From: a virus
Direction: 5' to 3' (one strand)
Length of the DNA stretch: 46,025 bases
IMG/VR virus record: IMGVR_UViG_3300006033_000040
Coordinates: 1 to 46,025 of that record
Positions 3,843-42,605 of the stretch are shown in pieces. The notes beneath the pieces are model-generated. The model had not been told where the DNA came from and searched no databases. It saw nothing but the letters and a program-made list of their open reading frames with translations. Both the position numbers and the translations under genes were made by a program. Each line of letters opens with the position of its first letter. The stretch's first letter is position 1.

Positions 3843-4070
3843 ATGCAATTCGTCGACGACGTGAAGAACGCGTACAAGTGGCTCTCGATGCAAGCCTCGG
3901 CGCTTGGCGCCGCTGCCATGGCCGCATGGCTTCTGCTGCCGGAACCGCAGCAGAAAGCCATCATCGCCGCAGCTGGTGAATCGATCGGCATCACCGATCC
4001 GATCGCCTCGCTGGGCTTGTTCGGCTTCATCGTGGTGATGATCGTGCGCTTGAAGAAGCAAAAGGTGTGA
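3843..4070 (+). CDS. Small membrane protein of the lysis cassette
   Basis: 75 residues from the ATG at 3843; a longer frame from 3669 only shadows the holin gene. Two hydrophobic stretches (ASALGAAAMAAWLLL and IASLGLFGFIVVMIV) flank a short polar loop, and the end is basic (RLKKQKV). Size, topology and position between holin and endolysin suggest a second holin, antiholin or holin partner. The sequence alone cannot separate these. Stop and next start are one base apart. Confidence 0.6.
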   Translation: MQFVDDVKNAYKWLSMQASALGAAAMAAWLLLPEPQQKAIIAAAGESIGITDPIASLGLFGFIVVMIVRLKKQKV

Positions 4071-4071
4071 C

Positions 4072-4683: not shown

Positions 4684-5045
4684 GCCCTTACGCCGCCCTG
4701 GCCGCTGTCGCCCTGCTCGCCGCAAGCCACGGCGCCACCGCCTGGTGGATGTACGGCGCCGGCAAGGATTCCGTCATCGCCGATCAAGCCCACGACGCAG
4801 AGACCGCCCGCGAGGCCCGCGAAGCTGCACTGCAGACGGTTGCCCAGGCCCTAGCCGCACAGGAGACCCGCAATGTCACGATCACCCAGCGCCTGGAGCA
4901 ACAAGTCCGCGAAGTGCCTGTGTACCGTGACTGCGTGCTGCCTGCTGCAGGCCTGCGCGACCTCAATGCCGCCATCACCGGCCGGGACGAGTCCGCTGGT
5001 GCTGGCGACATGCACACGGCCGACCCCGCTTCAGGAGCCCGCTGA
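4680..5045 (+). CDS. Rz: Inner-membrane spanin subunit (Rz-like)
   Basis: 121 residues from TTG, whose bases overlap the endolysin stop. The first ATG lies beyond the membrane segment and would remove it. An N-terminal transmembrane helix (residues 4-25, LAAVALLAASHGATAWWMYG) is followed by a long Ala/Glu/Gln-rich predicted coiled coil. This is the i-spanin layout: anchored in the inner membrane with a periplasmic helix that contacts the outer-membrane partner. The partner gene is nested in another frame, as in lambda. Confidence 0.78.
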   Translation: MSPYAALAAVALLAASHGATAWWMYGAGKDSVIADQAHDAETAREAREAALQTVAQALAAQETRNVTITQRLEQQVREVPVYRDCVLPAAGLRDLNAAITGRDESAGAGDMHTADPASGAR

Positions 5046-5991: not shown

Positions 5992-7532
5992 CGATCAACA
6001 CGCAGGAGCTGCTGGAGCTTCTGCCGCACATGACCGAGGAAGAGCGCGCCGAGGTCGAAAAGCTGCTGCGCGTGAGCACTCCGATCTGGTGCCCACAGCC
6101 TGGGCCTCAGACTGAGGCGCTGCTGTCCAAGGCGGACATCCTCTACTACGGCGGCCAGGCCGGCGGCGGGAAAACAGACCTTCTTCTTGGCGTTGCTCTG
6201 ACCCAGCAGGAGCGCAGCATCCTCTTTCGCCGCCAGGCTGTGCAGCTGACCGGCATCGAAGAGCGCATGGCCACGATCATCGGTACGCGCGCCGGCTACA
6301 ACAGCCAGACCGGCATGTGGCGCCTTCCCGAAGGTGGGCGGACGCTGGAGCTGGGCTCTTGCAAAGAGCCGGGCGACTGGATGAAGTACCAGGGCCGCCC
6401 GCACGATGCGAAGCTGTTCGACGAGATCCCGCACTTCACAGAGACGCAGTTCCGCAGCCTGATCGGCTGGATGCGCACCGACAACCCGAAGGTGCGCCAG
6501 CGCGTGATCTGCGCCGGCAATCCTCCGACCGACAGTGATGGCGAGTGGGTGATTCGGTACTGGGCGCCGTGGCTAGACCCGCAGCACGCCAACCCAGCAA
6601 AGCCTGGCGAGCTGCGCTGGTTCATCACGAACGAGCACGGCGAAGACCAGGAAGTCCCCGACAGCCGGCCAGTGAAGGTAAAGGGCCGCTGGGTTAACCC
6701 GAAGAGCCGCACGTTCATCCGATCGACGGTCGACGACAACGTGTTCCTGAGCAGCACAGGCTACCGCGACACGCTGATGGCGCTGCCTGAGCCCCTACGG
6801 TCACAGATGGCCGAGGGCAACTTCCTGGCCGGCCTGGGTGATGCGCCGTGGCAGCTGATACCGACATCGTGGGTCGACGCAGCACAGGCTCGGTGGAGGC
6901 CGCTTGAGCCAGCCGAGCGCGGCCCGATGACCCGCGTGGGGTTCGACGTTGCGATCGGCGGGCAGGACAAGAGCACTCTGGCGCCGCGGCACACCAGATG
7001 GTTCGGTGAGTTCGTGTCGGCGCCAGGGAAGATCACAACGGATGGCCCAAAGGCTGCGGCGTTCATCGTCGGCGTGGTGCGCGATGGAGCGATGGTCTGC
7101 GTGGATTCCATCGGCGTCGGGACCACGGCCCTTGATCACTGCCGCGGCCTGAACCTCAACGTCCACGCGGTGGTTGGTAGCGAGGGCACCAAGTCTACCG
7201 ACAAGACCGGCGAACTGCGGTTCAGGAACGTGCGCGCCGAGATGTACTGGCGCTTGCGTGAGGCGATGGACCCGGATGGCGAAGACCCGATTGCACTGCC
7301 GCCCGACAAGGAGCTGCGTCAGGAGCTGTTGGCCCATCGCTACAAGGTAGTGCAGATGGGCCCCTACGCAGGCATCCAGGTACGAAGCAAGGATGAAGTC
7401 AAGGAGGCCATCGGGCGATCCCCTGACAAATCCGATTCGGTAGCCATGACCTTCGCTGATGGAGTCCCTGAATCCGTCAACGCGCGTGAGGATGCAACCG
7501 CATTCCGCCGCCGCCGCGGCCTGGGCCGATAG
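5988..7532 (+). CDS. Terminase large subunit (packaging ATPase/nuclease)
   Basis: 514 residues. Walker A is GGQAGGGKT (55-63). Walker B with catalytic acid is AKLFDEIPHF (Asp145, Glu146). The C-terminal nuclease domain starts around FDVAIGGQDKS, with further acidic positions in VCVDSIGVG and DKSDSVAMTFADG, as in RNase H-like terminase nucleases. It pumps DNA into proheads and cuts concatemers. The N-terminal 40 residues are a helical extension. Length is normal for the family. The gene overlaps the small-subunit gene and precedes the portal by 12 bases. Confidence 0.92.
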   Translation: MTINTQELLELLPHMTEEERAEVEKLLRVSTPIWCPQPGPQTEALLSKADILYYGGQAGGGKTDLLLGVALTQQERSILFRRQAVQLTGIEERMATIIGTRAGYNSQTGMWRLPEGGRTLELGSCKEPGDWMKYQGRPHDAKLFDEIPHFTETQFRSLIGWMRTDNPKVRQRVICAGNPPTDSDGEWVIRYWAPWLDPQHANPAKPGELRWFITNEHGEDQEVPDSRPVKVKGRWVNPKSRTFIRSTVDDNVFLSSTGYRDTLMALPEPLRSQMAEGNFLAGLGDAPWQLIPTSWVDAAQARWRPLEPAERGPMTRVGFDVAIGGQDKSTLAPRHTRWFGEFVSAPGKITTDGPKAAAFIVGVVRDGAMVCVDSIGVGTTALDHCRGLNLNVHAVVGSEGTKSTDKTGELRFRNVRAEMYWRLREAMDPDGEDPIALPPDKELRQELLAHRYKVVQMGPYAGIQVRSKDEVKEAIGRSPDKSDSVAMTFADGVPESVNAREDATAFRRRRGLGR

Positions 7533-27362: not shown

Positions 27363-30300
27363 ATGCCGCGTCCGTGGAGTGAAGTTGAGCAGTCCCGTGA
27401 ATTCCAAGACCTGAGCCGAGACGACCGAGAGGCGGCCCGCGCTCAATACTGGCGGGATGTGGTTCGGCCACAGATCCAGAACCGCGAGGATCTTGCGCCA
27501 GCCCGACAAGCCTTCTTTGCAAGAAGCGGCACATCAGTCGCGCGTGAACAGTTGCCTGACGAGGTGCAGTACAGCACTGCAGCCGGCGGCGGCCGCGGTG
27601 GGCAAGGCGGCCCGACCGCCGATGAACTGGCAAAGGCCAATCCTCCGAGCTTGGTGCAGCGCGTCAAGCGCGGCCTGTCCGAGGCACTCACGCCAAAGGT
27701 GACTGCGGCGCAGATGATCGAACAGCCGCGTGGGCCCGATGAGCCTGTGCCGGTGGAAGACCTCCAGCGCCGCATGCTTGAGGCGACAGACCCAGCAGCA
27801 GCCGCGCGCCGTGATGCGCAGGAACTCGCCCAGGCCGCATACCGTCCTGGCCAGATGTCTGCATCGCCAGACCGCACAACGCTTCAGCGTGTGTTGGACA
27901 CCACCAACCGCAAGCCGCTCGACAACTCCCTTGGCGGCCTGCTTCTGGAGACCGGCGGCGACGCTGCCCGTGGCGCGGTGCGCGGTGTGGAGAGCATCGG
28001 CACATCCGGGTGGGGCCTGGTGCGCGCTGGCGCGGATGTCGTCGGCGCTGACAAAGTGGCCGGCGTGGCAGCCGAGGCAGGCAAGGCCGGGCGGCGCTCC
28101 ATGGATGCGATCGCCAGCCCTGACCGCAACTCCACCACGCAACAGGTGTTCGAGAGCACCTTTGCGAACGTCCCTGTGCTGCTGGGCCTGGGCGCCGGAA
28201 GCAAGGCGTTGGTGGCCATGGGCGGCATGTCCGCGGGCAGTGCCTACGATGAGGCGCGCAACGCAGGGAAGCCCGTTGACGAGGCGCTGGAGCGCGGCGT
28301 GACGCACGGCTTGGCCGAGATGCTGGGCGAGAAGGTCGCACTTCCAGCGCTTGGGAAGCTCTTCTCACGCGCAGCAACGAAGGTTTCGACGCCAGAGCTT
28401 GGCCATCTCCTGGCCGATCTGCTGGTGAAGGAGCAGGTTGGCGAGCAGGCAACCACTGCCATGCAGGACGCCTACGACAAGTTTGGGAGCGGTGGCACGC
28501 GGCCCTACATGACGCTGAGCGACTACCTGGACGATGCCATCCAGACATCGAAGGTCACGCTGGGCCAGTCGCTGCTGATGGGCGGCGGCGCCGCGGTGTT
28601 GAACAAGTTGGCGCAGCCGAAGGCGGTTGACCCGCTGGCGATGCGCCAGGCTTTCACGCGGGTGGCAAACGGCCATGGCCTGAATCCGAAGGCGGCGGCG
28701 GCGATCGAGCAGCAGGCCGCGCAACTTCCGCCAGAGAAGGCACCTGGGTTCATCGAGCGCGCGATCGGCGCCATGGAGAGGCGTGGCCTGGTCAAGAAGG
28801 CAGGTGCATCGTTGGCCTGGCAGCAGGCAGTGCAGCAGTCCGCGGCGGCTCAGCCGGAGATCATCAACCAGCCCAACGCGCCAACTGCGGCAGACATGGG
28901 GTGGGCAGATGGAGTGCAGGCCAGCCAGCAAGGCCCCGCCAATGCCGATCAAGTGGCAACGTTGCCACTTGAAAACACTGGTGGTCCGGCCCAGGTGACC
29001 GCCCAAGTGTGGAATGGCCAACCCTTCGAGCCCGCCGGGCAGCCCATGGCCGGGCCTGATGGCCGCCAGTACCTGCCCGCAATGGCCGCCGGCAAGCCGG
29101 TGTTCATCCCCGTTGACGAGATCACTCAGGAGGCTCCCGCCGATGTCAGCATTCCAATGGCACCTTCTCCCGTGGCTGGAGGAAGCGGTGATGTCGCAGG
29201 CGGTGTCGATTCAGGAGGCCTGGCAGGTGCAGGACCAGCAGTTGATCCACTTGTACGAGGATCTGGTGACGATGCCGGAATGCTTGCGGCCAACGATGGA
29301 GCGGCTGCACCTGTTCGAGATGGAATCGCCCAGCGACCTCCTGCACTGACCACGCCGGCCCAGCCCACCACGTTGGGCGAGATGGTCAGTGCCCGCCCGA
29401 ACAACGCGCCCGGGTTCACTGCGGCAGATGTGATGCGCCCTGCCCAGCCCGAGGCAGTACAGCCAGAGCCGCCGGCCGCGCCAGCGCGCCGCGCCGACTT
29501 CGAGAGCGAAGATGCGGTGCGGCAGTTCCTGAGCGAGCAGCGCCGCAACTCCAGCATCCGCATCAGCGCTGCGCCGGTGCAGACCGAAAGCGGCTGGAGC
29601 TTCGTCACGAAGGACGAGCCGGGCTACGACGAGGCGCGCCAGGCGGCCACATCCCGCGCCGAGCAGCGCAGCCAGCCGCCGGCACAGGATCTGGCCGGCG
29701 AGAAGCTGAATCGCAGCTGGACGGCCTTCGCGCCAGAGACAGGAACCAAAGGCGTGCCGCGGGCAGAAATGCCGCAAGTGAAGGCCGGCGACCGCAGCGC
29801 GCTTGTGCAGTACCTGCGGGCCCGCGGCGTGGAGTACGAGGCCGACGCCGAGATCCCCGCAGTTGACCTGAAGCCGACACAGGCTGAGTTCTCGCCGTCG
29901 AAGGTCAAGCAGGCCATGGAGCACCAGGGCGGAGACCGCTCGATCCTCGTCAGCTCAGACGGCTACGTGGTGGACGGGCATCACCAGTGGCTCGCCAAGC
30001 GCGAGGCCGGTGAGCCCGTGAAGGCGATTCGCCTGAGCGCCCCGATCGACGAACTTCTGCCGCTGGTGCGCGAGTTCCCGTCAGTTGGTAAGGCCGCAGG
30101 CGCAACGAAGCCAACGGCGCAGCCTGCTGACGCCGCCCAGCAAGCAGCGCCCGCACCAGAACAGGCGCAAGCAGCGCCCGCGGCCGCAGAAGGCGAGCCG
30201 GTAGTGGTTCATCGGACAAGCAAGGGCAAAGAACTCACCGGCTACGTGCGCAAGCTCACCCCCGCGCAGGCACAGGCCATCGACCCGTACACCTTCCGCA

Positions 30301-33300
30301 AGGGCGAGAAGGGCATGTACTTCGTGCGCAAGGAACGTGCCGATGCATGGGATGCACAGCAATCCGCCGCTGCTGAGATGGCCGCCCCGGACTACTGGCA
30401 GAAGAAACTTGACGCAAAGAAATCAACCGCCCCAACCCAAGAAGCAGCAACGCCGCGAGAAGCTGCGCCCGCAGCCGAGCCAGCCGGTGGAGTTCCCGCA
30501 GCCGGAAGTGCCACCGTGGAAGCCGATGGGGTAAAGGTCGAACCCAAGCCAGGATCTCGTGTCACCAATCCGGACGGCAGCTACTACACGGTTCCGAAGC
30601 CCGAGAGAAAGTCCGCCGGCAAGGTCACTGGGGTGAAGCCAGCGCCAGCGCCAGGCACACGCAAGGCTGAGATGCGCCCGTATCGGCGCAGTGATGGCAG
30701 CATCGGCTACGAGGCGGTTCCGATCGTTCCGCCACCCGCACCGGAGCCGGCGGCCGAGATCGACCCGATGGAATCAGCTCCTGCTGTCAGCAAGAACACG
30801 GTCTTCACCGAGCCCGCCCCCGCCAAGAAGCCGGCCGACATGGCTGGGTTTGTCGGTGTGAGCGACGTTGAGCTCGCACTGCGCCGGCTGTCCAGCGCCG
30901 AGCAGCGACCTGGCGACATCAAACTTGGCAACGACAAGTTCGTGACGCTCGATCAGGCCGTGGCCGCCGCGCGCGAAGCTATGACCCCGAAAGAATGGGG
31001 CATGCCGTTCCAGTTCATGCGCGTGTTGGACATCGCGCCGGTGGACTGGGGCCGGATGGTCAATGCGATGAAGGAGCCGGCCGCGGCGCCAGCCATCAGC
31101 GCCAACACCGTTTTCACCGAGGATGCGGCCGCCAAGGCCCGCGCGCTGCTGAAGTCGAAGCTGGGCCAGCTGAACAGCGGCATCGACCCCGAGGTGATGA
31201 TGGCCGGCATCACGCTGGCCGGGTACCACATCGAGAAGGGCGCACGCACCTTCGCCGCCTACAGCAAGGCGATGCTGGCCGACCTGGGCGACGCGGCCCG
31301 GCCGTACCTCAAGAGCTGGTACCTTGGGTTGCGGTTCGACCCGCGCGCCGCGGCATTCGCGGGCGACATGGACAGCGCCTCCACTGTGGAAGCGGCCAGT
31401 GTTGAGCAAGCCGCCGAACCGGCGCAAACTACCGGGGCAACGGAGGCCCCCAATGATGCACGCAACCTGGATCGCGCAAGCCCGAGCGCACTGGAAGGAG
31501 TTCCAGCCGCGCCGGTTCAAAGAGCTGCTGGCCAGCGGGAGGCTGAACGAGGCGCTGGAGACAGCCGCCCAGCAGACGGCGGACGAGATGCAGCAGCTGG
31601 TGAACGAGGGGTTCAACCGATCGGAGGCGTGGGAGGCGGTGAGGGAGCTGTACCTGTTCCCGCCCGAGGAAAGCGCGCAGGACGAGGCTCCGGAGTCGCC
31701 CGGATTCGAGACAGCGCAGAGCGTGAGCAGCCTTCTGGGCAACCTCAAGATGCCGGGCGAGAGGGACGACTAGACCCGCCTCAGTTTGAGCCTGCCGACT
31801 TCACCATTGAGCAGGATTTCGCCCTGGGCGAGGGCGGTCAAAAAACCAAGTACCGCCTGAACGCCGATGCGATCCGCCTGGTGAAGGCGCTCGAAACCGC
31901 CGGCCGCACTGCGACGGTGGACGAGCAGCAGGTGCTGGCCAAGTACGTGGGCTGGGGTGGTATTCCGCAGGCCTTCGACGAGAAGAATGCCGACTGGGCC
32001 AAGCAGCACGCCGAACTGCGCGAGCTGCTGACGCCCGACGAGTGGGCTGCGGCCGTGCAGAGCACGCAGTACGCGCACTACACCTCCAAGGAGATCATCG
32101 GCGGCATGTACACGGCGCTGCGCCGCATGGGCTTCACCGGCGGCGCAACGCTGGAGGCCGGCGGCGGGGTGGGCAACTTCATCGGTCTGATGCCTGCTGA
32201 CATGCGCACCGCTGGCAAGGTGACGCTGATCGAGCGCGAGACCATCGCCGCCATGATCGCCAAGCACCTGTACCCGCGCCAGAACGTGCGGCGCGCCGAT
32301 TTCACCGAGTTCGGCAAGGGCCAGGATGGGCAGTTCGATGCCCAGGTCGGCAACCCGCCGTTTTCGTCCACCACGCTGACCGACCAGTCTGGCCGCAAGC
32401 ACTTGTCTGGCCTGAGCGTCCACAACTACTTCATCGCCAAGGGCATCGACCTGCTGCGAGAGGGCGGCGTCTCTGCGGTGGTGGTGTCGAATTCGTTCCT
32501 CGATGCGAAGAACGACCGGGCCCGCGCCTACATCGCTGACCGGACCCGCTTCCTGGGCGCGATCCGCCTGCCAAACAACGCCTTCGCCAAGAACGCCGGC
32601 ACCGAGGTCACGACCGACATCGTGTTCTTCCAGAAGCTGCCCGAGAGCGAATGGGGAAGCAAGGCGGCCAAGGCTGACGCCAAACGCTGGGTTGGCGTTG
32701 AGGCGGTTGCTGACGCGGCCGGCGGCAAGGATCTGGCGCTGAATGCCTACTTCGCCGCCAACCCCGACATGATGCTGGGACAGTGGGGCCGCTTTGGCAC
32801 CATGTACGGCCCTGACCAACCCGCCCTGGTGGCGAAGGACGGCCAGGACACGGCTGCGCTGCTGGCCCGCGCGGTGAAGAACCTGCCCGAGGGGATCTAT
32901 ACCCCGGCGGCCGTGGTGAACACCGCCGCAATGCGTGACGCTGGCATCGAGGCGCTGCACGACAAGACGGTGGCAGAAGGTGGCTTCTACAACCACACCA
33001 CCGGCCTGTGGCGGCGCCTGCCTGACCGCGCCGGTGAAGAGGTGGCCGTGCGTGTCACACCAGAGACGATGTGGAGTGCGAAACAAGCACTCGGGCAAGC
33101 CGGGTTCCAGCGCCTGCAGCGCCTGGCCGACATGCGCCGCACCGTGCGCGACCTACTGGCCGCCGAGATCGCCGACGACAAGGCCATGGACGGCCTGCGC
33201 AAGACCCTCAACGAGCAGTATGACGCCTATGTGGCCGACGCTGGCCCGATCAACGACCGCGCGACCGCGCGCCTGTTCGAGGATGACCCTGACTACCCGC

Positions 33301-35105
33301 TGCTGGCCGCCCTGGAAACCGACTTCGAGCCCGGCATGGGCCCGGCTGCAGCAAAAGCCAACGGCATCAAGGCGTACAAGGCCAAGGCCAAGAAGTCAGC
33401 CATCTTTGACCGCCGTGTGGTGGATGCCCGCAAGACGGTCACGCGCGCTGACAGCCCGAGCGACGCCCTGAACGTGGCCATGGCCGAGCGTGGCCGGCTG
33501 GACGCGCAGTACATCGGCCAGCTGCTTGGCAAAGACCCGGACGGCGTGCTGGAAGAGCTGGCCGGCGGGGATGCGCCGCTGCTGTTCAAAGACCCGTCCA
33601 CCGGCGAGTACGTGCTTCGAGATGCCTACCTGTCCGGCAACGTGCGCGCCAAGCTGCTGCAGGCGCGCCGCGCCGGCATGATGGCCAACGCACGGGCGTT
33701 GGAGGCCGTGCAGCCCGAGGACGTGCCCGCCAGCCAGATCGCCGCGCGCATCGGCTCGCCCTGGGTGCCCACCGAGGTCTATCAGGACTTCGCCGCCCAG
33801 CTGCTGGGTGATGGAACGAAGGCCGCGGTGCAGTACATGCCGCTGAACTCGTCCTTCAGTGGCGTGATCCGACCCGGGTCTGACGTGGCCTCGCGCACGA
33901 CGTTCGGCACACCCGCCTACCCGGCTGAAGACCTGCTGTTCGCGCTGATGAACAACCGCGAGATCAAGGTCACGTACCGGGACAACGACGGCAAGACCCA
34001 CGTCGACCGCGCCGCAACCGAGCTCGCCAACGAAAAGGCGGCCGAGATCAAGGACAAGTTCCAGGACTGGCTGTTCAAGGATGCCGACCGGGCCGAGTCG
34101 CTGGTGCGCGCCTACAACGACGCCAACAACAACTACGTCACCAGGCAGTACGACGGAAGCTGGATTCGCTTTCCTGGCAAGGTGCCCGACAGCATCATCA
34201 AGTTCCGCCGGCACCAGCGCAACGCCATCGCGCGCACGATCCAGGACCGCACGGCGCTCTACGATCATGTCGTCGGGGCGGGCAAGACTTTTACTGCCAT
34301 CGCTGCCGCAATGGAGCTCAAGCGCACCGGCCTGGCCCGCAAGCCCATGATCGTGGTCCCGAACCACCTTGTGAAGCAGTGGGCCGCCGACTTCTACCGG
34401 CTCTACCCTGGCGCCAAGATCTTGACCGCCACGAAAGCGGACTTCGAGCGCGCCAACCGCCGCAAGTTCCTGGGCAAGATCGCCACCGGCGACTGGGACG
34501 CGGTGATCATCGCGCACTCGTCGTTCGGCTTCATCAAGCCGGCCCCCGAGTTCGAGGCCCGCTTTAACGAGGAGCAGGTCGAGCAAGTGATGGCCACCAT
34601 CAAGGCTGTGGAGGATGGTGACGGCGACGAGCGCGCCAAGAAGCGCACCGTCAAGCAGTTGGAGAAGATGAAGGAGCGGCTGGAAAACCGCGTCGCCAGC
34701 CTGCGCGAGAAGTCCATCGACGATCTGCTGGACCTGCAGCAGTTGGGCGTCGACCAGCTGTTCGTGGACGAGGCGCACTGCTTCCCGTGGGACGCCATGG
34801 TGACGACAGAACTCGGCCACATGCCGATTGGTGAGCTTGTTGAGAGCCGAACATCTATTCGCGTTCTATCTGTAGATTTATCAACTGGCGCGCTGGCCTG
34901 GAAGCCGGTGACCAACTGGTTCACCAATGCGCGAGAGCACCAAATGGTGCGCATCCACCACGATTACGGCGTGCTGGAGTGCACCGCGAACCATCAGGTT
35001 TGGACGCATGAAGACGGATATGTCGCCGCTGGCGACCTCAAGCCACACCACACCCTGCGCATCGCCGACGCCGAAGAGGCGCGGTCCTGTGCCGAAGCCT
35101 GTTGA
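27363..35105 (+). CDS. Giant DarB-like protein, N-terminal half, ending in split intein N
   Basis: 2580 residues: N-extein 1-2472 plus N-intein 2473-2580. Residues 1-480 are virion-type helical sequence. A ParB-like domain lies near 808-910 (YVVDGHHQWLAKREAGEPV). Long Ala/Pro/Glu linkers flank it. An N6-adenine methylase (about 1480-1750) has EAGGGVGNFIG and NPPF (Asn1664). The SF2/SNF2 helicase begins near 2270 with VVGAGKTFTA (Lys2308) and reaches DEAH (2469-2472), where the intein starts. DarB of phage P1 combines methylase and helicase and protects ejected DNA from type I restriction; the same role is inferred here. Only a TGA separates this frame from its continuation. Two small genes are nested in its linkers. 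Confidence 0.85.
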   Translation: MPRPWSEVEQSREFQDLSRDDREAARAQYWRDVVRPQIQNREDLAPARQAFFARSGTSVAREQLPDEVQYSTAAGGGRGGQGGPTADELAKANPPSLVQRVKRGLSEALTPKVTAAQMIEQPRGPDEPVPVEDLQRRMLEATDPAAAARRDAQELAQAAYRPGQMSASPDRTTLQRVLDTTNRKPLDNSLGGLLLETGGDAARGAVRGVESIGTSGWGLVRAGADVVGADKVAGVAAEAGKAGRRSMDAIASPDRNSTTQQVFESTFANVPVLLGLGAGSKALVAMGGMSAGSAYDEARNAGKPVDEALERGVTHGLAEMLGEKVALPALGKLFSRAATKVSTPELGHLLADLLVKEQVGEQATTAMQDAYDKFGSGGTRPYMTLSDYLDDAIQTSKVTLGQSLLMGGGAAVLNKLAQPKAVDPLAMRQAFTRVANGHGLNPKAAAAIEQQAAQLPPEKAPGFIERAIGAMERRGLVKKAGASLAWQQAVQQSAAAQPEIINQPNAPTAADMGWADGVQASQQGPANADQVATLPLENTGGPAQVTAQVWNGQPFEPAGQPMAGPDGRQYLPAMAAGKPVFIPVDEITQEAPADVSIPMAPSPVAGGSGDVAGGVDSGGLAGAGPAVDPLVRGSGDDAGMLAANDGAAAPVRDGIAQRPPALTTPAQPTTLGEMVSARPNNAPGFTAADVMRPAQPEAVQPEPPAAPARRADFESEDAVRQFLSEQRRNSSIRISAAPVQTESGWSFVTKDEPGYDEARQAATSRAEQRSQPPAQDLAGEKLNRSWTAFAPETGTKGVPRAEMPQVKAGDRSALVQYLRARGVEYEADAEIPAVDLKPTQAEFSPSKVKQAMEHQGGDRSILVSSDGYVVDGHHQWLAKREAGEPVKAIRLSAPIDELLPLVREFPSVGKAAGATKPTAQPADAAQQAAPAPEQAQAAPAAAEGEPVVVHRTSKGKELTGYVRKLTPAQAQAIDPYTFRKGEKGMYFVRKERADAWDAQQSAAAEMAAPDYWQKKLDAKKSTAPTQEAATPREAAPAAEPAGGVPAAGSATVEADGVKVEPKPGSRVTNPDGSYYTVPKPERKSAGKVTGVKPAPAPGTRKAEMRPYRRSDGSIGYEAVPIVPPPAPEPAAEIDPMESAPAVSKNTVFTEPAPAKKPADMAGFVGVSDVELALRRLSSAEQRPGDIKLGNDKFVTLDQAVAAAREAMTPKEWGMPFQFMRVLDIAPVDWGRMVNAMKEPAAAPAISANTVFTEDAAAKARALLKSKLGQLNSGIDPEVMMAGITLAGYHIEKGARTFAAYSKAMLADLGDAARPYLKSWYLGLRFDPRAAAFAGDMDSASTVEAASVEQAAEPAQTTGATEAPNDARNLDRASPSALEGVPAAPVQRAAGQREAERGAGDSRPADGGRDAAAGERGVQPIGGVGGGEGAVPVPARGKRAGRGSGVARIRDSAEREQPSGQPQDAGREGRLDPPQFEPADFTIEQDFALGEGGQKTKYRLNADAIRLVKALETAGRTATVDEQQVLAKYVGWGGIPQAFDEKNADWAKQHAELRELLTPDEWAAAVQSTQYAHYTSKEIIGGMYTALRRMGFTGGATLEAGGGVGNFIGLMPADMRTAGKVTLIERETIAAMIAKHLYPRQNVRRADFTEFGKGQDGQFDAQVGNPPFSSTTLTDQSGRKHLSGLSVHNYFIAKGIDLLREGGVSAVVVSNSFLDAKNDRARAYIADRTRFLGAIRLPNNAFAKNAGTEVTTDIVFFQKLPESEWGSKAAKADAKRWVGVEAVADAAGGKDLALNAYFAANPDMMLGQWGRFGTMYGPDQPALVAKDGQDTAALLARAVKNLPEGIYTPAAVVNTAAMRDAGIEALHDKTVAEGGFYNHTTGLWRRLPDRAGEEVAVRVTPETMWSAKQALGQAGFQRLQRLADMRRTVRDLLAAEIADDKAMDGLRKTLNEQYDAYVADAGPINDRATARLFEDDPDYPLLAALETDFEPGMGPAAAKANGIKAYKAKAKKSAIFDRRVVDARKTVTRADSPSDALNVAMAERGRLDAQYIGQLLGKDPDGVLEELAGGDAPLLFKDPSTGEYVLRDAYLSGNVRAKLLQARRAGMMANARALEAVQPEDVPASQIAARIGSPWVPTEVYQDFAAQLLGDGTKAAVQYMPLNSSFSGVIRPGSDVASRTTFGTPAYPAEDLLFALMNNREIKVTYRDNDGKTHVDRAATELANEKAAEIKDKFQDWLFKDADRAESLVRAYNDANNNYVTRQYDGSWIRFPGKVPDSIIKFRRHQRNAIARTIQDRTALYDHVVGAGKTFTAIAAAMELKRTGLARKPMIVVPNHLVKQWAADFYRLYPGAKILTATKADFERANRRKFLGKIATGDWDAVIIAHSSFGFIKPAPEFEARFNEEQVEQVMATIKAVEDGDGDERAKKRTVKQLEKMKERLENRVASLREKSIDDLLDLQQLGVDQLFVDEAHCFPWDAMVTTELGHMPIGELVESRTSIRVLSVDLSTGALAWKPVTNWFTNAREHQMVRIHHDYGVLECTANHQVWTHEDGYVAAGDLKPHHTLRIADAEEARSCAEAC
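28949..28972. repeat. 24-bp perfect palindrome, copy 2
   Basis: TCAAGTGGCAAC is followed by its reverse complement, inside the giant gene and read as QVATLPLE in a linker. It is identical to the core of the palindrome at 9648. Being in both coding and non-coding DNA suggests an inserted mobile-like element or a protein-binding site and not a chance hairpin. Confidence 0.85.
29143..29349 (+). CDS. Nested small gene in giant-gene linker
   Basis: 68 residues in the +1 frame relative to the giant ORF. A perfect AGGAGG lies nine bases before the ATG. The product (MSAFQWHLLPWLEEAVM start, QDQQLIHLYEDLVTMPECL middle) has normal protein composition with predicted helices. The giant frame here is low-complexity Ala/Gly/Asp linker. 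That contrast suggests the small frame is the constrained one. No family is recognised. Function is unknown; a small partner of the giant protein or an independent host-takeover protein are options. Confidence 0.6.
   Translation: MSAFQWHLLPWLEEAVMSQAVSIQEAWQVQDQQLIHLYEDLVTMPECLRPTMERLHLFEMESPSDLLH
31453..31773 (+). CDS. Nested small gene in giant-gene linker, helical
   Basis: 106 residues from ATGATG, with GGAGG six bases upstream, in a different frame from the giant ORF. The product reads as a real helical protein: WIAQARAHWKEFQPRRF, LLASGRLNEALETAAQQTADE, FNRSEAWEAVRELYLFPPEE. I recall similar conserved hypothetical proteins in phage and prophage genomes. The giant frame here is Ala/Gly/Arg-rich and disordered-looking. 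It ends before the methylase domain starts. The longer frame from 31324 lacks an SD. Confidence 0.72.
   Translation: MMHATWIAQARAHWKEFQPRRFKELLASGRLNEALETAAQQTADEMQQLVNEGFNRSEAWEAVRELYLFPPEESAQDEAPESPGFETAQSVSSLLGNLKMPGERDD
34779..35102 (+). other. Split intein, N-terminal fragment (108 residues)
   Basis: Starts with Cys1 right after the helicase DEAH box. Block A is CFPWDAMVTTELGHMPIGEL. Block B is LECTANHQVWT with Thr69 and His72, the residues that assist the N-S acyl shift. It continues GYVAAGDLKPHHTLRI and ends at TGA. The DNA is AT-richer than its surroundings at the start (around 34800-34890), a sign of separate origin. Length matches known N-inteins (about 90-110 residues). Confidence 0.9.
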
Positions 35106-35736
35106 GAAGGTATGCGAGCAATGCCACAAGCCGTTCCAGTTCAAGTCGTCGGGGGCGGCGAACAACGCCAAGAGGCGGTTCTGCAGCAACCCATGCGCGG
35201 CAACGTGGCGGATGACACTGGAGCACGTTCGTGCCCCCATCCTTGCCGGTCTTTCGGAGGGGCAGAAACTTGCGGCTGCGCGCCGAAGGGGGTCAAAGGA
35301 TCCTGCCGCTTCTCAACGGATGAGGGAGCTGAATCCGACAGCCGATCCAGTGGTCATCGAGAAGATTCGAGCGGCGATGGCCGGAAGGAAGCTGGTGGAG
35401 CGCGGGGGAAATGGGAAGCTGACGCGCCCGCAGCTGTTGATTCACGAGGCAACCGGGATGGAGATGGAGTTCGTGGTGAACACGTCCCCGATCCGAGCCC
35501 TGATGCCGGGCCTTCCCAAGCACTACAAGTTGGATTTGGCGAATCCGGTAGCGATGGTGGCAGTAGAGGTGGATGGGAGGTCACACAAGTCGCCGGCCGG
35601 CAGGGATCGGGATGCCCGCAAGAACCGGGCGCTCGAAGCTCTCGGGTGGTGCGTGTTGAGGTTCTGGAACCAGGAGGTGGACGAGAACCTGCCCGGGGTG
35701 GTGGAGAAGATCCACCGGTGTATTGCATCGAGGTAG
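35089..35736 (+). CDS. Free-standing homing endonuclease, zinc finger plus Vsr-like (DUF559) nuclease
   Basis: 215 residues from a GTG with GAGG nine bases upstream, overlapping the end of the N-intein by 17 bases. Residues 9-36 form a zinc finger (Cys9, Cys12, Cys32, Cys36). A basic NUMOD3-like region (MRELNPTADPVVIEKI) follows. The C-terminal half is a PD-(D/E)xK/Vsr-like fold: YKLDLANP (Asp149), AVEVDGRSH (Glu160, Asp162, His166), RDRD near 172-175, and ALEALGWCVLRFW. This resembles the endonuclease family found inserted between split-intein halves. It would cut intein-free copies of the helicase gene and drive homing. It overlaps the C-intein frame. Confidence 0.85.
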   Translation: MPKPVEKVCEQCHKPFQFKSSGAANNAKRRFCSNPCAATWRMTLEHVRAPILAGLSEGQKLAAARRRGSKDPAASQRMRELNPTADPVVIEKIRAAMAGRKLVERGGNGKLTRPQLLIHEATGMEMEFVVNTSPIRALMPGLPKHYKLDLANPVAMVAVEVDGRSHKSPAGRDRDARKNRALEALGWCVLRFWNQEVDENLPGVVEKIHRCIASR

Positions 35737-35780
35737 CCGACACACACAACTTCTTTGCTGATGGGGTTCTGGTCTCCAAC
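35646..35780 (+). other. Split intein, C-terminal fragment
   Basis: In the frame of the downstream gene: VVRVEVLEPG, a Gly/Pro-rich loop, then VYCIEVADTHNFFADGVLVSN written as blocks F (VYCIEV...HNFFA) and G (VLVSN). It ends Ser-Asn before extein Ser+1; penultimate Ser instead of His also occurs in Npu DnaE. The first 30 codons overlap the endonuclease gene in another frame. Confidence 0.82.
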
Positions 35781-38700
35781 AGCTTCAAGAACCTCATGTT
35801 CAGCACCAAGATGCAGAACGTACAGGGCCTGGGCGACTCGAAGGGCTCCAAGCGCGCCTACGACATGTACGTGAAGACGCGCCAGATCATGGACCAGAAC
35901 GGCCGTGGACAGGGCGTTGTCTTCATGACCGGCACGCCGGTGAGCAACAGCCTGGCTGAGATGTACCACATGATGCGGTACCTGATGCCTGAGCAGGTGA
36001 AGCAGCTGGGGTTCGAGAGCTTCGACGCATGGGCCAACACCTTCGCATCGGTGAATCAGGTGTGGCTGCAGAAGGCCAGCGGGGACGGCTTCAAGGCCAG
36101 CAACCGCATGAGCAGCTTCGACAACACTGCCGAGCTGCTGAAGCTGTTTGATCAGGTGTCCGACACGGTGACGATGGACGACATCAAGGCCGCGTTCAAG
36201 GAAGAGAACGGCGGCAAGGAATTCCCGCTGCCGGTGCTGAAGACAGGCCGCCGTCAGCCGGTGTCGATGGACAAGAGCCCCGCGCTCGATGCCTACATGG
36301 GTGAGATCGCCAAGCGCGCGGCCGCGCTGGAGGCGCGCAAGGGCCCACCACAGAAGGGCGACGACAACATCCTGGTGGTGATGGGTGACGCCCGCAAAGC
36401 TGCCATGGACATCCGCCTGGTGGACAAGACTGCTACAGCGCGCGAGCCCGGCGGACGAATCGACCGATCTGCCGACGAAATCGTGTCGCGCTGGAAGCAG
36501 CACGCCGAACACCGCGGCACTCAGCTGGTGTTCTCCGACATGGGCACGCCACTGAAGTCGGCCGCGAAGGAGCTGGCCGAATACAACGAGATCAAGGCGC
36601 GTACCGAGCCGCTGTCCGATGAGCAACTGCGCGCCAGCGCCGACTTGGGTGATGAGGCTGCCGCCGCCAAGCTGGCCGCCGCCGAAGAGGCCCAGGCCGA
36701 GTTGGATGCCAAGGGCCGCGACTGGCTGGACGCCATCCAGGCCGCACTGCGCGGGTTCTCGGTCTATGACGACCTGCGCGCGGCGCTGGTGGAGCGCGGC
36801 ATCCCGGCCGAGCAGGTCGCCTTCATCCACGACTTCAACACCGACGACCAGAAGGCCGCCCTGTTCCGCAAGGTCAACAACGGCGATATCCGGGTTCTGA
36901 TCGGCAGCACGCCGAAGATGGGTGCCGGCACCAACGTGCAGAAGCGCCTGGTGGCGCTGCACCACCTGGATGTGCCGTGGCGGCCATCGGACGTTGAGCA
37001 GCGCGAGGGGCGGATCATCCGGCAGGGCAACATGCTGGCCGACACGATCCCGGGCTTCGAGGTCGAGATCCTGGCCTACGTGACCCGCGACACCCTGGAC
37101 ATGCGCATGTGGCAGATCCAGGAAACGAAGCTGAAGATGATCAACCAGCTTCGCACGCGGCAGATCGAGCGTGAGATCGAGAACGCCTTTGAGGACATGG
37201 AGCTGTCCGCCGGCGAGATGCAGGCAGCGGCCACCGGCAACATGGACCTGCTGAAGGAAATCCAGCTGCGCACCGACGTGCAGAAGCTGGAGAAGAAGCA
37301 GCGCGCCTTCGACGCCACCCGCTCCGACCTGATCGGCCGACGCCGCCGTGCCGAGCAGGATGTGAAGCGCCTGCCGGCTCGGATCGAAGAGGCGCAGAAG
37401 CTCGCCGACGCCACCAAGGAGGTGGTCGACGCGGTGGCTGCCTTCAAGAGCGGCTTCAAGGTGACGATCAACGGGAAGGCCTACACCGATCGGGCCGCCG
37501 CCGGCTTCGAGCTGCGCCGCCTGGACGATGCCACCGAGACCGGCGAGGACGGCAAGGAGAAGAAGGCCAAGCTGTCGGTGGAGCTCAACGGCGAGACCTA
37601 CACCAGCCGCACAAAGATGGCCGAGGCTTTCGCGCGGCTGTCAGGCGACGTTGAGCCGTTCCTGTTCAGCACCGATGGGCAGACGTTCCACCGCCGCGCC
37701 GACGCCGCCCAGGCCATCCAGACCACGGTGGCTGACGCTGTGGCGGAAGAAGCCCGGCGCGAGATCGGCGCCATCGGCCCCTACAAGGTGACGGTGGAAG
37801 GCCAGAAGGACAAGCGCGGCGAGCAGTTCGTCGAGATCGTGGCAGAAGCCGGCGGCCAGGTGCTGGACACCACCGTGCCCGTGCCGTCGAGCCTGAAAGA
37901 CCCCGAGCAGCTGGCCCGCAAGGTGGCCGAAGACGTGCTCAAGGCCGCCCGCTCGATGGTTTGGGGCACGACTGACAACCTGCGCTGGGAGACTGGCCAG
38001 TTGGAGCGCGCCCGCAAGACCCTGGCCGATCTTGAATCCACCGAGACCACCGAGGCATGGCCCGATGCTGACAGGCTGGAGAAGGCCCGCGCTGCTCACA
38101 AGGAAGTGTTGCAGCGCCTGAGCAGCACCAAGACGGAGGCGCCTCCCGCTGAGTTCTCGGACGGCGCGAAGGCCCAGGCCGTTGCCGCCGTTGAGGCTGA
38201 TGTCGCCAAGGTGCGCGAAGGCTGGGCCAACGCCCCGGAAATCATCGTCGCTTTCGACATGAACGACCCGAAGGTGCCGAGCGAGGCCCGCCAAGACTTC
38301 GACAAGCTGCGCCGATCTGGCGCCGCCGGCTCGCCCGAGGGGTTCTTCCTCAACGGCAAGGTGTACCTGCTGGCCAGCCAGCTGCGCACACCGGCTGACG
38401 CTGCCCGCGTTCTGGCACACGAGGCGCTTGGGCACTACGGCCTGCGCGGCGTGTTCGGCAACGACCTGAACGGCATGCTTGACCGCCTGGCCAAGGCACT
38501 GCCAGAGAAGGTGGGCGCGAAGGCCAAGCAGTACGGCCTGAACATGGCCGACTCCGAGCAGCGCCGGCAGGCGGCCGAAGAGTATCTGGCCGAGCTGGCG
38601 CAGACCCGGCCGACCAGCACCTGGGTGCAAGCCCTGCTGGCGCGCGTGCGCAACTGGCTGCGCGAGAACCTGCCGGGCTTCGACAAGCTGAAGATGACGG

Positions 38701-41700
38701 ATGCCGATGTCATCGCGCAGTTCATCGCGCCGGCGCGCGGCTGGGTGGAGCGCGGCCGCGGCGCCGCTGCCGGCCCGACCCGTTTCCAGATCGTGTTCCA
38801 CGGCACGCCGCACCGCGGCATTGAGCAGTTCAGCACGGACAAGATCGGGACGGGCGAGGGCGCCCAAGCCTACGGGTGGGGGCTCTACATGGCTTCGCGC
38901 AGGGAAGTGGCCGAGTTCTATCGCAAAAAGCTGACTCCCGGCGGCGATGCGCTTCGCATTGATGGCAAGAAGCCAGAGTTTGATATGGGGGCTCCTGGCG
39001 GGCTACCGGCCACACAGGACGGAGCCTTAACCAACAAGGCCATCCTGATGCTCCAAGAGGCTCAATCGTCTTCAGGCTTGGATAAGGTGCTCGCTAGGTA
39101 TGCCGACCCGGCCGTGGCGGCGCGAGCCCGCCAACTGCTGACGCGCGCAACCTGGGTGCCTGCCGGTCAGCTCTACGAGGCCGAGATCCCCGAAGACGAC
39201 ACCATGCTGCACTGGGACAAGCCGCTCAGCGAGCAGCCGGAGAAAGTGCGGGATGCGCTCGCCAAAGACGCGGATTTCAAGGACAAGAACACGCTGCGCG
39301 GGATGCGCGACCGTTACGGCGCATCCGGAAACGCTGATCCCACTGGAGAGCAGATCTACAACCACGCCACCCTATCGTTCCATGCATTTGATGGTGGCCT
39401 GGCTGATGGCACTCCAGCCGGCGCATCCAAATACCTGGCTTCGCTCGGCATCAAGGGCATCAAGTACCTGGATGGCACCAGCCGCAGCGCGGGCGAGGGG
39501 AGCTACAACTACGTGATCTTCGATGGCTCCGACGCCAAGATCACGAAGACCCACTTCAGCCTCGCCGACAAGGCCCGAGCCGTGGCCGCCGGCAAGATCC
39601 CTGGCGGCCAGCTGTTCGCCGACATGGCCGTGAAAACCGCCGAGGATGGCCGGCTGCACTGGTGGCACAAGAGCCTGGGCAAGCCGTACAACCTAGCCCA
39701 GCGCAACAAGCACTTCAAGCGCGTGTTCGATGCCGTGCAGGGCTTCATCGCTGACTCGACGAAATACACCGCCGAGGCGGCGCAGCTAGCGCCCGACGTG
39801 ATCCCGCTGCTGGACAGCCTGAGCGACATCATCCCGGCCCGCCTGAAGGTGTTTGGGCACGAGTTCGGCAAGGCGCCGATCAGCGTGGCCGACTCGAAGA
39901 TGCTGGCCACCACCGTGTTCCATGGCACGCTGGCCTGGACGCGGGACCGCAATGGCCGCCCAGTGAAGATCGAAGACGCCGAGGCCGCCGCCGAGGGCCT
40001 GGACACCGAGCAGAAGATGCGCATCCTGCTGCGCGACGGCAAGGTGACGGCTGATCAGGTGCAGCGCATGCAGGCCAACGTGCTGGACATGTACGAAGGC
40101 TGGGTGCGCAACCAGTTCGAGCAAGCCTACCTGCGGCCTGGCATCGTGTTCACCCCGGCCGAGTTGAAACATCACTTCGGCGCCGACGATGGGCAGATCA
40201 AGCTGTACCAGCAGTTCCGCACCGCGGTGGACCGCAGCCTGACCGACCTGGCCGTGTCCGACATGCTGCGCGTGGCCGGCGCCGATGCGGCCGAGATCGC
40301 CGACGAGGTGATGGCGCTGCACGACGTGGCTGCCGCGTCCGACAAGTTGGCGCAGCACCTGCGCGACCTGGGACAACTGGAGCAGGCACGCGCTGGCGTG
40401 CTGGAAGATGCCGTGAACAGCATCCTCGATAAGGCCGAAAAGGCGGGAGACCTGATGGCCCGCGGTTACGCCCCTCTGATGCGCTTTGGCACCCACACTG
40501 TGGATGTCGTCGACCAGGACGGCGAGCGCGTGTTCTTCGGGATGTTTGAGACCGTGCGTGAGGCCCGGGAGATGACGGCCAAGATGAAGGCCGAGTACCC
40601 CGAGGCGGCTGTCACGCGCGGTACGCTGTCCGAGAAGCAGCACGAGCTGTACGCTGGCGTGAGCCCTGAGACGCTGGAGCTATTCGGCGAGATCCTGGGT
40701 CTGGACGCACAGGGCGACAAGGCCAGCGACATCGCATTCCAGGAATACCTGAAGAAGGTCAAAAACCAGCGCAGCGCGATGAAGCGACTGATCCACCGCA
40801 AGGGGATCGCCGGCTACTCCGAAGACGCCGGCCGGGTGCTGACCAGCTTTGTGTTCTCGAACGGCCGACAAGTCGCGGGGAACCTGCGGCAGGCGTCGAT
40901 CAAGACGGCTCTGGAGGCCATCCCGAAAGAGCAGGGCCAGGTGCGTGACGCGGCCATTGCTGAGGTCAAGACGGTGATGAACCCAACCGAGACCGCTGCG
41001 GCTGTGCGCCAGCTGATGTTCGCCCACTACCTGGGCGGCAACATCTCGTCGGCTGTGGTCAACCTGACCCAGACCATGAGCACCACGCTGCCCTACCTGA
41101 GCCAGTGGGGCGCTGGCAAGGCGGCGAAGGAGCTCGCCAAGGCTTACCGCACGCTGCGTGTGGCCAAGATCGCCGACCCAGCCCTGAAGGCGGCCTTGCA
41201 ACGCGCCGACGAGGAGGGCATCACGGCGCCGCAGGAAATCCACGAGATCATGGCACAGGCCAGCGGCCGGGCATCGCTGCGCACCGGCGACGGGACGCTC
41301 AAGGGAGCGGCCATCGCCCGCACCCGCAACGCTGTCAGCCGGGTTGGCCTGGCCTGGGGCAAGCCGTTCTCGTGGGCGGAAATGGTCAACCGCCGGGCAA
41401 GCTTCATCGCGGCCTACCGCACAGCCATCCGCGAGAACCTGGGCGACCCATACGAGTTCGCCAAGAAGGTGGTCAACGAGACCCAGTTTCTGGCCAACAA
41501 GGGGAACCGATCAGCAGCCGAGCGCAGCGCCGCCGGCAGCGTGCTTCTCACCTTCAAGGGGTTTGGCATCCAGACGGTGGAGCTGCTGAACCGCTTGTGG
41601 ATGCAGGGCGAGGCCGGTTCGCCCGAGCGCCGTCAGGGCCGAAAGGCTGCGCTGATGATGCTGGGCATGCTGTTCCTGATGGGCGGCGCTGGTGGCCTGC

Positions 41701-42605
41701 CGTTCGCAGGCGATGCGGAAGACCTCATCGACGGGATGATGCAGCACCTGGGCAAGGACTGGGTGACGAAGGAGAAGCGTGAAGACGTGGTGCGCGCCGT
41801 GGCCGGCAAGTTGGCTGAGCTGTTTGGTGCTGACCCTGGCATGCGCGCAGCCGCGGAAACCTGGGCCTGGCGCTTCGCCGACCGTGGTGTGTCCGGCCTG
41901 CCGGGCGCCCCATTCGATGTGGCGGGCCGGCTGGGCATGGGCAACATGATCCCGGGAACCGGCGCGCTGAAGGTCAAGCAGGACCGCACCAAGGATCTGG
42001 AAGAGCTTGGTGGGCCGGCGTGGAGCTTCTTCACGACGTACTTCAAGGCCGCCGAGATGATCGCCGAGGGCGTGGGCGACACAATCAACTCGGGCGATCC
42101 GCGCGGCGCCACTGAGGGCGCCGGCCGAGCCATCGCCCAGGCCGCCCCGGTGGGCATCCGCAACGCCCTCAAGGGCGCCGAGATGCTGAAGGACGGCAAG
42201 TACCGCGATACCGCAGGCAACAAGGTGGTCGACACCACCACAGCTGATGCGCTGTGGAAGATGATCGGCTTCAACCCCAACCGGGTGGCTGAACGCCGGG
42301 CATCCGAGGGTGTGGTTCGTGACAAGATCGCGCTCAACCGTGAAACCGCCTCACGCATCATCGACCAGATCGCCCGCGGCGTGGACGAGAAGGACGATGC
42401 CAGAACAGCCCGCGCCATGAAGATGCTTGACCTGTGGAACCAGACTTACCCCGACAACACCATTGACCCGCAGCGCGTCACCAACGCAGTGAAGGCCAAG
42501 GTGAAGCGGATGAACCAGGACAGCACCGACAGGCTGATCCGTTCCGCCCCGAAGTCCATGCGTGGCGCGGTGATGCAAGAGCTGCGCGAAGAGGCCGCCC
42601 AATGA
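35646..42605 (+). CDS. Giant DarB-like protein, C-terminal half, led by split intein C
   Basis: 2319 residues from GTG 35646: C-intein of 45, then C-extein of 2274 beginning Ser-Phe-Lys-Asn-Leu. No good SD is visible at 35646/35649; GTG 35718 has GGAG 11 bases upstream but would truncate the intein. The helicase continues with GTPVSNSLAEMYHM and GAGTNVQ/REGRIIRQG (36920-37030), then a long coiled coil. HEALGHYGLRG (about 38418) is a zincin-like motif. ART-like domain: FHGTPHRGIEQF, GEGAQAYGWGLYMA, GEGSYNYVIFDG (38790-39530). The C-terminal third carries LPD38-like helices and a hydrophobic stretch (MMLGMLFLMGGAGG). Probably a virion protein acting in the infected cell. Confidence 0.8.
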   Translation: MVRVEVLEPGGGREPARGGGEDPPVYCIEVADTHNFFADGVLVSNSFKNLMFSTKMQNVQGLGDSKGSKRAYDMYVKTRQIMDQNGRGQGVVFMTGTPVSNSLAEMYHMMRYLMPEQVKQLGFESFDAWANTFASVNQVWLQKASGDGFKASNRMSSFDNTAELLKLFDQVSDTVTMDDIKAAFKEENGGKEFPLPVLKTGRRQPVSMDKSPALDAYMGEIAKRAAALEARKGPPQKGDDNILVVMGDARKAAMDIRLVDKTATAREPGGRIDRSADEIVSRWKQHAEHRGTQLVFSDMGTPLKSAAKELAEYNEIKARTEPLSDEQLRASADLGDEAAAAKLAAAEEAQAELDAKGRDWLDAIQAALRGFSVYDDLRAALVERGIPAEQVAFIHDFNTDDQKAALFRKVNNGDIRVLIGSTPKMGAGTNVQKRLVALHHLDVPWRPSDVEQREGRIIRQGNMLADTIPGFEVEILAYVTRDTLDMRMWQIQETKLKMINQLRTRQIEREIENAFEDMELSAGEMQAAATGNMDLLKEIQLRTDVQKLEKKQRAFDATRSDLIGRRRRAEQDVKRLPARIEEAQKLADATKEVVDAVAAFKSGFKVTINGKAYTDRAAAGFELRRLDDATETGEDGKEKKAKLSVELNGETYTSRTKMAEAFARLSGDVEPFLFSTDGQTFHRRADAAQAIQTTVADAVAEEARREIGAIGPYKVTVEGQKDKRGEQFVEIVAEAGGQVLDTTVPVPSSLKDPEQLARKVAEDVLKAARSMVWGTTDNLRWETGQLERARKTLADLESTETTEAWPDADRLEKARAAHKEVLQRLSSTKTEAPPAEFSDGAKAQAVAAVEADVAKVREGWANAPEIIVAFDMNDPKVPSEARQDFDKLRRSGAAGSPEGFFLNGKVYLLASQLRTPADAARVLAHEALGHYGLRGVFGNDLNGMLDRLAKALPEKVGAKAKQYGLNMADSEQRRQAAEEYLAELAQTRPTSTWVQALLARVRNWLRENLPGFDKLKMTDADVIAQFIAPARGWVERGRGAAAGPTRFQIVFHGTPHRGIEQFSTDKIGTGEGAQAYGWGLYMASRREVAEFYRKKLTPGGDALRIDGKKPEFDMGAPGGLPATQDGALTNKAILMLQEAQSSSGLDKVLARYADPAVAARARQLLTRATWVPAGQLYEAEIPEDDTMLHWDKPLSEQPEKVRDALAKDADFKDKNTLRGMRDRYGASGNADPTGEQIYNHATLSFHAFDGGLADGTPAGASKYLASLGIKGIKYLDGTSRSAGEGSYNYVIFDGSDAKITKTHFSLADKARAVAAGKIPGGQLFADMAVKTAEDGRLHWWHKSLGKPYNLAQRNKHFKRVFDAVQGFIADSTKYTAEAAQLAPDVIPLLDSLSDIIPARLKVFGHEFGKAPISVADSKMLATTVFHGTLAWTRDRNGRPVKIEDAEAAAEGLDTEQKMRILLRDGKVTADQVQRMQANVLDMYEGWVRNQFEQAYLRPGIVFTPAELKHHFGADDGQIKLYQQFRTAVDRSLTDLAVSDMLRVAGADAAEIADEVMALHDVAAASDKLAQHLRDLGQLEQARAGVLEDAVNSILDKAEKAGDLMARGYAPLMRFGTHTVDVVDQDGERVFFGMFETVREAREMTAKMKAEYPEAAVTRGTLSEKQHELYAGVSPETLELFGEILGLDAQGDKASDIAFQEYLKKVKNQRSAMKRLIHRKGIAGYSEDAGRVLTSFVFSNGRQVAGNLRQASIKTALEAIPKEQGQVRDAAIAEVKTVMNPTETAAAVRQLMFAHYLGGNISSAVVNLTQTMSTTLPYLSQWGAGKAAKELAKAYRTLRVAKIADPALKAALQRADEEGITAPQEIHEIMAQASGRASLRTGDGTLKGAAIARTRNAVSRVGLAWGKPFSWAEMVNRRASFIAAYRTAIRENLGDPYEFAKKVVNETQFLANKGNRSAAERSAAGSVLLTFKGFGIQTVELLNRLWMQGEAGSPERRQGRKAALMMLGMLFLMGGAGGLPFAGDAEDLIDGMMQHLGKDWVTKEKREDVVRAVAGKLAELFGADPGMRAAAETWAWRFADRGVSGLPGAPFDVAGRLGMGNMIPGTGALKVKQDRTKDLEELGGPAWSFFTTYFKAAEMIAEGVGDTINSGDPRGATEGAGRAIAQAAPVGIRNALKGAEMLKDGKYRDTAGNKVVDTTTADALWKMIGFNPNRVAERRASEGVVRDKIALNRETASRIIDQIARGVDEKDDARTARAMKMLDLWNQTYPDNTIDPQRVTNAVKAKVKRMNQDSTDRLIRSAPKSMRGAVMQELREEAAQ

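Follow-up and report, generated by a model that had tools for sequence, protein, structure and literature searches.

The nested gene and its parent

A viral DNA of 46,025 nucleotides (IMG/VR record IMGVR_UViG_3300006033_000040; "the window" hereafter means this whole stretch) carries at 27363-35105 a giant open reading frame (ORF), the longest gene of the phage, which encodes a DarB-like polyvalent protein. Within it, and in the +1 frame relative to it, lies an ORF of 106 codons at 31453-31773, just upstream of the adenine-methylase/SNF2-helicase part of the giant ORF. Based on comparisons among relatives, we consider this small ORF to be very probably a real nested gene that is translated by internal initiation. 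The features of the locus are as follows.

31453..31773, + strand: nested gene for a 106-amino-acid TnpV-like helical protein, in the +1 frame of the giant ORF (homology, selection, profile, model)
31442..31446, + strand: Shine-Dalgarno sequence GGAGG, 6 nucleotides before the nested ATG (sequence; duplex with the anti-Shine-Dalgarno (anti-SD) sequence, -9.5 kcal/mol)
27363..35105, + strand: giant parent ORF, 2580 amino acids, with an N-terminal polyvalent part, a linker, a methyltransferase, the N-part of an SNF2-type helicase and, at its end, the N-part of an intein
31197..31349, + strand: conserved parent-frame segment upstream (AGITLAGYHIEKGARTFAAY...), in the methylase frame
31392..31800, + strand: linker of the parent protein over the nested gene, of low conservation and probably disordered; open but sequence-neutral
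31854..32573, + strand: parent-frame N-terminal segment with the KYVGWGG motif and adenine methyltransferase, directly downstream of the nested gene (domain description in PMC5512222)

The nested ORF begins with an ATG at 31453, followed by a further ATG at 31456, and ends with TAG at 31771-31773. The original prediction, made from this DNA alone, had noticed GGAGG six bases before ATGATG and a 106-residue ORF inside the giant one, and these bases were confirmed. The whole ORF lies inside another ORF on the same strand but in a different frame, and both frames are maintained. As for the parent, it matches Eco57I/N6_Mtase and then ResIII/SNF2 profiles, as well as phrog_10089 at 1248 bits. Packaging in the virion and protection of DNA against type I restriction are known for DarB of phage P1 (PMC5512222). 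In the relative JC1, the DarB-like protein of the same type, gp69, is encoded by a single coding sequence of 4515 amino acids and was found in purified virions with 51 unique peptides (PMC9144972), in agreement with the earlier view of the parent as a virion protein.

Homologues are nested in phages and free-standing in bacterial genomes

A tblastn search against phage records returned 21 records representing 11 distinct phages, with E-values from 2e-18 to 7e-4. These are Erwinia phages PEp14, Pavtok and Stean, Pseudomonas phage Itty13, Agrobacterium phage Atu_ph08, Ochrobactrum phage POI1126, Klebsiella phages LASTA (of which SJM3 is a near copy) and SopranoGao, Vibrio phage VvAW1, Sinorhizobium phage PBC5 and Microcystis phage Mwe-JY07. 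The small gene is unannotated in every matching record, with a single feature lying under each match. All 11 copies are embedded, and 10 of them match in +1 relative to a giant ORF that is either annotated or simply open; the latter applies to Itty13, where the deposited genes are on the opposite strand and the large open frame served as the reference. In PBC5, the small domain shares the frame of orf33, which precedes it, yet the methylase frame runs open across the domain here too, which points to one indel upstream. This shift, of one base, falls at 6890-6990 of the locus (L010), after the UP motif and ahead of the nested gene, and joins the small domain in frame to orf33; it reflects either an error in the sequencing of an old record or a genuine fusion.

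A scan of viral contigs with the single sequence gave no homologue, but an alignment search did, adding 69 viral-contig and 22 genome loci. With homologues in the 11 reference phages and these 91 further loci, the nested ORF cannot be attributed to chance, and the claim that its product looked conserved was borne out. Nearly two hundred related viral and bacterial sequences have a small gene of this kind at the same place. Since some viral-contig loci duplicate reference phages, 61 sequence clusters were used for counts. Of the 103 loci that were inspected, 95 combine a nested gene in +1 with a downstream methylase motif in the parent frame. The remaining eight comprise five free-standing copies (L082, L084, L086, L088 and L089), two contigs that end near the gene (L068 and L077), and L016, which looks truncated and frameshifted.

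The free-standing relatives, from Corticibacter, Variovorax, Pseudidiomarina and two metagenome-assembled genomes, start at the equivalent Met, and the frame corresponding to the giant one is closed in them by one to seven stops. The BLAST or HMM search proposed with the original prediction thus recovered homologues outside the overlap as well, so that the ground it gave for its own rejection, a lack of such homologues, does not apply. Four of these copies lie at 3986-4285 (L082), 514-900 (L084), 4001-4321 (L086) and 3977-4765 (L089) of loci from bacterial genomes. Judged by eye, ORFs near the free-standing copies look like XRE-type regulators, type I restriction genes, an McrB-like ATPase or a relaxase, and in L089 the domain is joined to a segment that looks membrane-spanning. 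A search for more such copies in 299 genomes of one bacterial family gave only two matches.

The small protein resembles TnpV

AlphaFold2 predicted a confident helical bundle, with helices at residues 2-17, 19-28, 31-51 and 56-68, predicted local distance difference test (pLDDT) values mostly above 90, and block means of 89-96 across residues 1-70. The description of the product as helical therefore stands for this part, whereas the last ~30 residues are predicted to be disordered. The Pfam family TnpV (PF14198) matches 41 of 56 family members at E<=0.1 (best 5.9e-6), and a profile-profile comparison of the nested family with TnpV gave E 1.8e-4 over 39 columns. The two share a similar size and a similar core motif, KEHRPxxYxxLxxxGxLxxHL. 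However, the window protein scores 20.4-21 bits, under the curated cut-off of 27 bits, and its match is limited to positions 25/26-78 of the 111 in the profile; we thus call it TnpV-like, not TnpV. Pfam, PHROG and NCBIfam provided no functional name beyond TnpV. A match to phrog_938, "endolysin", was set aside, as the PBC5 in-frame fusion offers the best explanation for it. Likewise, the only fold-search match in BFVD, Q8W6J4, was taken as the PBC5 orf33 fusion.

Bona fide TnpV occurs in the same arrangement in mobile elements of the gut (E 1e-24 to 1e-33 in three scanned against Pfam). There its frame is +1 relative to an ORF with the same methylase segment downstream and mostly a conserved N-terminal domain upstream, in all eight loci for which the parent ORF was available (the overlap is partial in L108), and further loci are alike. 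Nested copies are located at L112 1935-2276, L109 1692-2111, L211 2053-2595, L212 2677-3183, L214 2206-2577 and L215 1129-1506, and the parent-frame linker of the gut elements, acidic and rich in glycine, shows a DEQHxxxGxG-like motif that recurs. Outside this setting, TnpV genes stand free, as on plasmids and in many viral contigs, with the other frame closed.

A +1 ORF accompanies the methylase segment

The locus was also approached from the methylase side, by searching with the methylase segment alone and inspecting the upstream region in the best 80 loci and two others. As a result, a +1 nested ORF was found at this place in all 82 loci. The window family accounts for 52, every one in the +1 frame, and in the other 30 a +1 ORF stops a short way ahead of the methylase; 29 of these ORFs belong to a second conserved subfamily (consensus PPLATEIANRWMLGWPKxVKxLI...HLARHEIAELYGLSxxPP) and one, L141, was assigned to neither. 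A +1 ORF is likewise present at this position in the more distant giant-ORF phages JC1 (2627-2962 of locus L104), BcepIL02, 8P, Y7 and USP_25. Furthermore, the nested gene is retained in L162, where the methylase gene is without the long N-terminal part, indicating that the association follows the methylase-helicase and not the upstream virion domains.

The protein of the second subfamily is likewise all-helical, and its comparison with the window family gave a weak similarity (E 7.6e-4, probability 25%), while that with the TnpV profile was not significant (E 0.27). The two nested subfamilies are likely of common ancestry; since the similarity is weak, the constant +1 frame fits a single origin without proving one.

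The small frame is constrained and the giant frame is neutral

Selection in the two frames was estimated by an OLGenie-style count, in which differences in aligned pairs are classed as nonsynonymous (N) or synonymous (S) by their effect in both frames. Over 22 independent pairs, dNN/dNS of the nested frame was 0.21 (bootstrap 95% 0.16-0.26), and dNN/dSN of the giant frame was 1.05 (0.77-1.41) over the same bases. The second subfamily gave 0.35 and 0.92, respectively, in eight pairs. Comparison of the window with L013 gives identities of 58% for the nested products, 52% for the parent frame and 68% for the methylase segment downstream. Even so, the giant frame is uninterrupted in all 61 clusters. 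When synonymous codons of the nested gene were permuted, the joint chance of an open giant frame was 10^-39 with the 61 clusters assumed independent, and 10^-9.3 with 18 clusters at 60% identity. The neutral giant frame, the low ratio in the nested frame and the ever-open reading frame together characterise the giant frame here as a linker with no visible amino-acid constraint, laid over a preserved small protein. The per-frame dN/dS comparison suggested earlier thus came out in favour of the nested gene and of the linker character of the giant frame.

The original prediction had further proposed that the small gene was overprinted inside the linker; here the direction is probably the reverse. 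Birth of the small gene de novo inside a pre-existing disordered linker would agree with the fact that most copies are nested, and an unconstrained linker could have hosted a new gene. However, it is the nested frame that is constrained, relatives stand free in bacterial genomes, and the profile resembles TnpV, itself free-standing on plasmids and in many viral contigs. We therefore regard de novo birth as unlikely. With a constrained small protein, free-standing relatives and a ratio of ~1 in the giant frame, of the two coding sequences the small gene probably came first, with the neutral linker of the giant ORF overprinted across it.

Initiation of the nested gene

Controls for the start signal were 3,583 other +1-frame ATGs within the same giant ORFs. 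The anti-SD duplex of the window gene is among the strongest 1.5% of them, so that its Shine-Dalgarno sequence indeed deserves to be called strong. Over the 61 nested starts, the median pairing energy was -7.0 kcal/mol, compared with -2.7 kcal/mol for control ATGs (p = 4e-28), and GGAG, AGGA or GAGG is present at 97% of the nested starts. In 17 of the 61 clusters, a stop in the nested frame lies within 10 codons upstream of the ATG, often only one or two codons away, which makes entry by frameshifting from far upstream unlikely in these clusters. In the window, the nested frame is already open from 31201; its ATG was therefore set by comparison with relatives, and for the window the argument from upstream stops is comparative.

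These data bear on programmed +1 frameshifting, by which ribosomes would slip from the giant ORF to make a short form of the virion protein ending in the TnpV-like domain. Such a mechanism would account for a nested frame that is always +1 and never +2, for the PBC5 domain fused in frame to the upstream protein, and for the open nested frame upstream of the window start. However, besides the nearby upstream stops in the 17 clusters, the start codon and Shine-Dalgarno sequence are conserved, the free-standing relatives begin at the equivalent Met, and inspection of the start contexts by eye brought up no common slippery motif. Frameshifting thus appears very unlikely, and internal initiation at the nested ATG is the favoured reading.

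We also considered that the giant ORF might consist of separate upstream and methylase genes, with the open frame through the nested gene being incidental. The neutrality of the giant-frame amino acids in the overlap speaks for this, as does the methylase ORF that is unfused to the phage N-part in L162 and the gut elements. But the frame is kept open in every cluster, the conserved flanks on the two sides, where both were found, share a single frame except in PBC5, and gp69 of JC1 occurs in virions as the product of one coding sequence (PMC9144972), making separate genes highly improbable. Finally, long spurious frames abound in coding DNA of high GC content, and the window has 162 ORFs of at least 90 amino acids, but a chance ORF without a product is refuted by the homology and the low nested ratio, with the Shine-Dalgarno statistics also against it, and its probability is practically negligible.

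The distal part of the DarB-like gene

The gene continues past the stop of the giant ORF, as follows.

35112..42605, + strand: second part of the DarB-like gene, with the helicase C-part, an ART-PolyVal-like domain and a PLxRFG domain, in the same frame, past a stop inside the intein

An intein at 34793-35780 is inserted in the helicase between VDEAH and FKNLMF, and relatives are without it. The ORF at 27363-35105 holds the N-block and comes to its stop within the intein, and the ORF at 35112-42605, in the same frame, holds the C-block. A 269-amino-acid ORF in the +1 frame (34927-35736) carries a DUF559/restriction-endonuclease-like nuclease (E 9.7e-14). Two readings fit this region: a split or trans-splicing intein whose homing nuclease is encoded in a different frame, or compensating frameshifts.

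Discussion

The arrangement recalls Rz1 within Rz, the spanins of phage lambda, where a small gene likewise lies wholly within a larger phage gene in the +1 frame and is usually missed by annotation. The protein, parent and function are unrelated, however: Rz1 is a lipoprotein of the lysis cassette, whereas the parent here is a giant methylase-helicase. The parent itself is of the DarB-like or polyvalent type, like P1 DarB, the proteins of Bcep22-like phages and the LPD36-MTase-SNF2 dyad, in its phrog_10089 match, adenine methyltransferase and helicase, and in being, among relatives, a virion protein. Unlike it, P1 DarB starts near the methyltransferase, and no nested relative was found in P1. 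The small P1 gene ulx also adjoins darB, and its product is tied to DarB function. Ulx has 146 amino acids and is encoded downstream of darB, and the nested family had no match to it on a 30-kb stretch of P1; it was thus rejected as a homologue. The methylase-helicase module has been described in phages and conjugative elements (PMC5512222), and a term search of the text of that paper found no mention of the overlap or of TnpV. A description of the nesting was not found in our literature search, which covered subscription journals only in part.

We propose that the nested gene is most likely expressed from its own Shine-Dalgarno sequence and ATG, by internal initiation on the mRNA of the giant protein, and that the giant frame would be translated straight across it as a sequence-neutral linker, on which the sole demand is the avoidance of stop codons. 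As to history, a methylase-helicase gene may once have been preceded by a small TnpV-like gene that was read through in another frame, joining the methylase-helicase ORF and the upstream domains across it and freezing the pair together. This read-through fusion seems the most economical history; a similar route, read-through of a stop, is one proposed origin of embedded spanin genes (PMC6139136).

The constant linkage to the DarB-like machine, across phages and conjugative-type elements, suggests a role for the small protein as a dedicated partner or regulator of the methylase-helicase, which we consider quite possible, if short of probable. It would then most likely be a chaperone or inhibitor that keeps the adenine methylase/SNF2 engine folded or silent up to its packaging, or its delivery for the protection of incoming DNA against restriction. 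Because its ORF is short and on the same message, the small product could greatly outnumber the protein of more than 4000 amino acids, and such an excess would suit a chaperone or inhibitor.

Several observations weigh against this picture. The partner role comes from association, and the free-standing copies have no adjoining methylase-helicase gene in the stretches seen, so partnership is not obligatory for the family. We know of no function for TnpV. A fold search gave no PDB match better than E 1.5, and a profile search of PDB sequences found only a designed protein (E 0.046), so that no solved structural relative was found by either. The window alone is compatible with +1 frameshift entry, its nested frame being open for 84 codons upstream of the start, and the chance of an open giant frame weakens to 10^-2.4 when five independent lineages are counted.

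The coding status, frame, conservation and, in the survey, constant association of the nested gene are backed by comparative evidence. More tentatively, we suggest that one ancient TnpV-like gene became locked into the +1 frame of anti-restriction ORFs of the methylase-helicase type before the phages of Proteobacteria and the mobile elements of gut Firmicutes diverged, and has stayed there ever since, with its product an obligate subunit or regulator; part of "TnpV" would then be a methylase-helicase partner and not a transposon protein. From the sequences compared, a widespread, virus-carried anti-restriction family seems to travel with an overlooked small partner. A whole class of phages with large genes thereby gains a conserved gene that is missing from the annotation, and TnpV, a family without a known function, is placed in a specific biochemical context, that of an adenine methylase and SNF2 helicase acting against restriction. 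The locus also provides a strong natural case of a protein frame that is kept open yet free in sequence, overprinted across a constrained gene.
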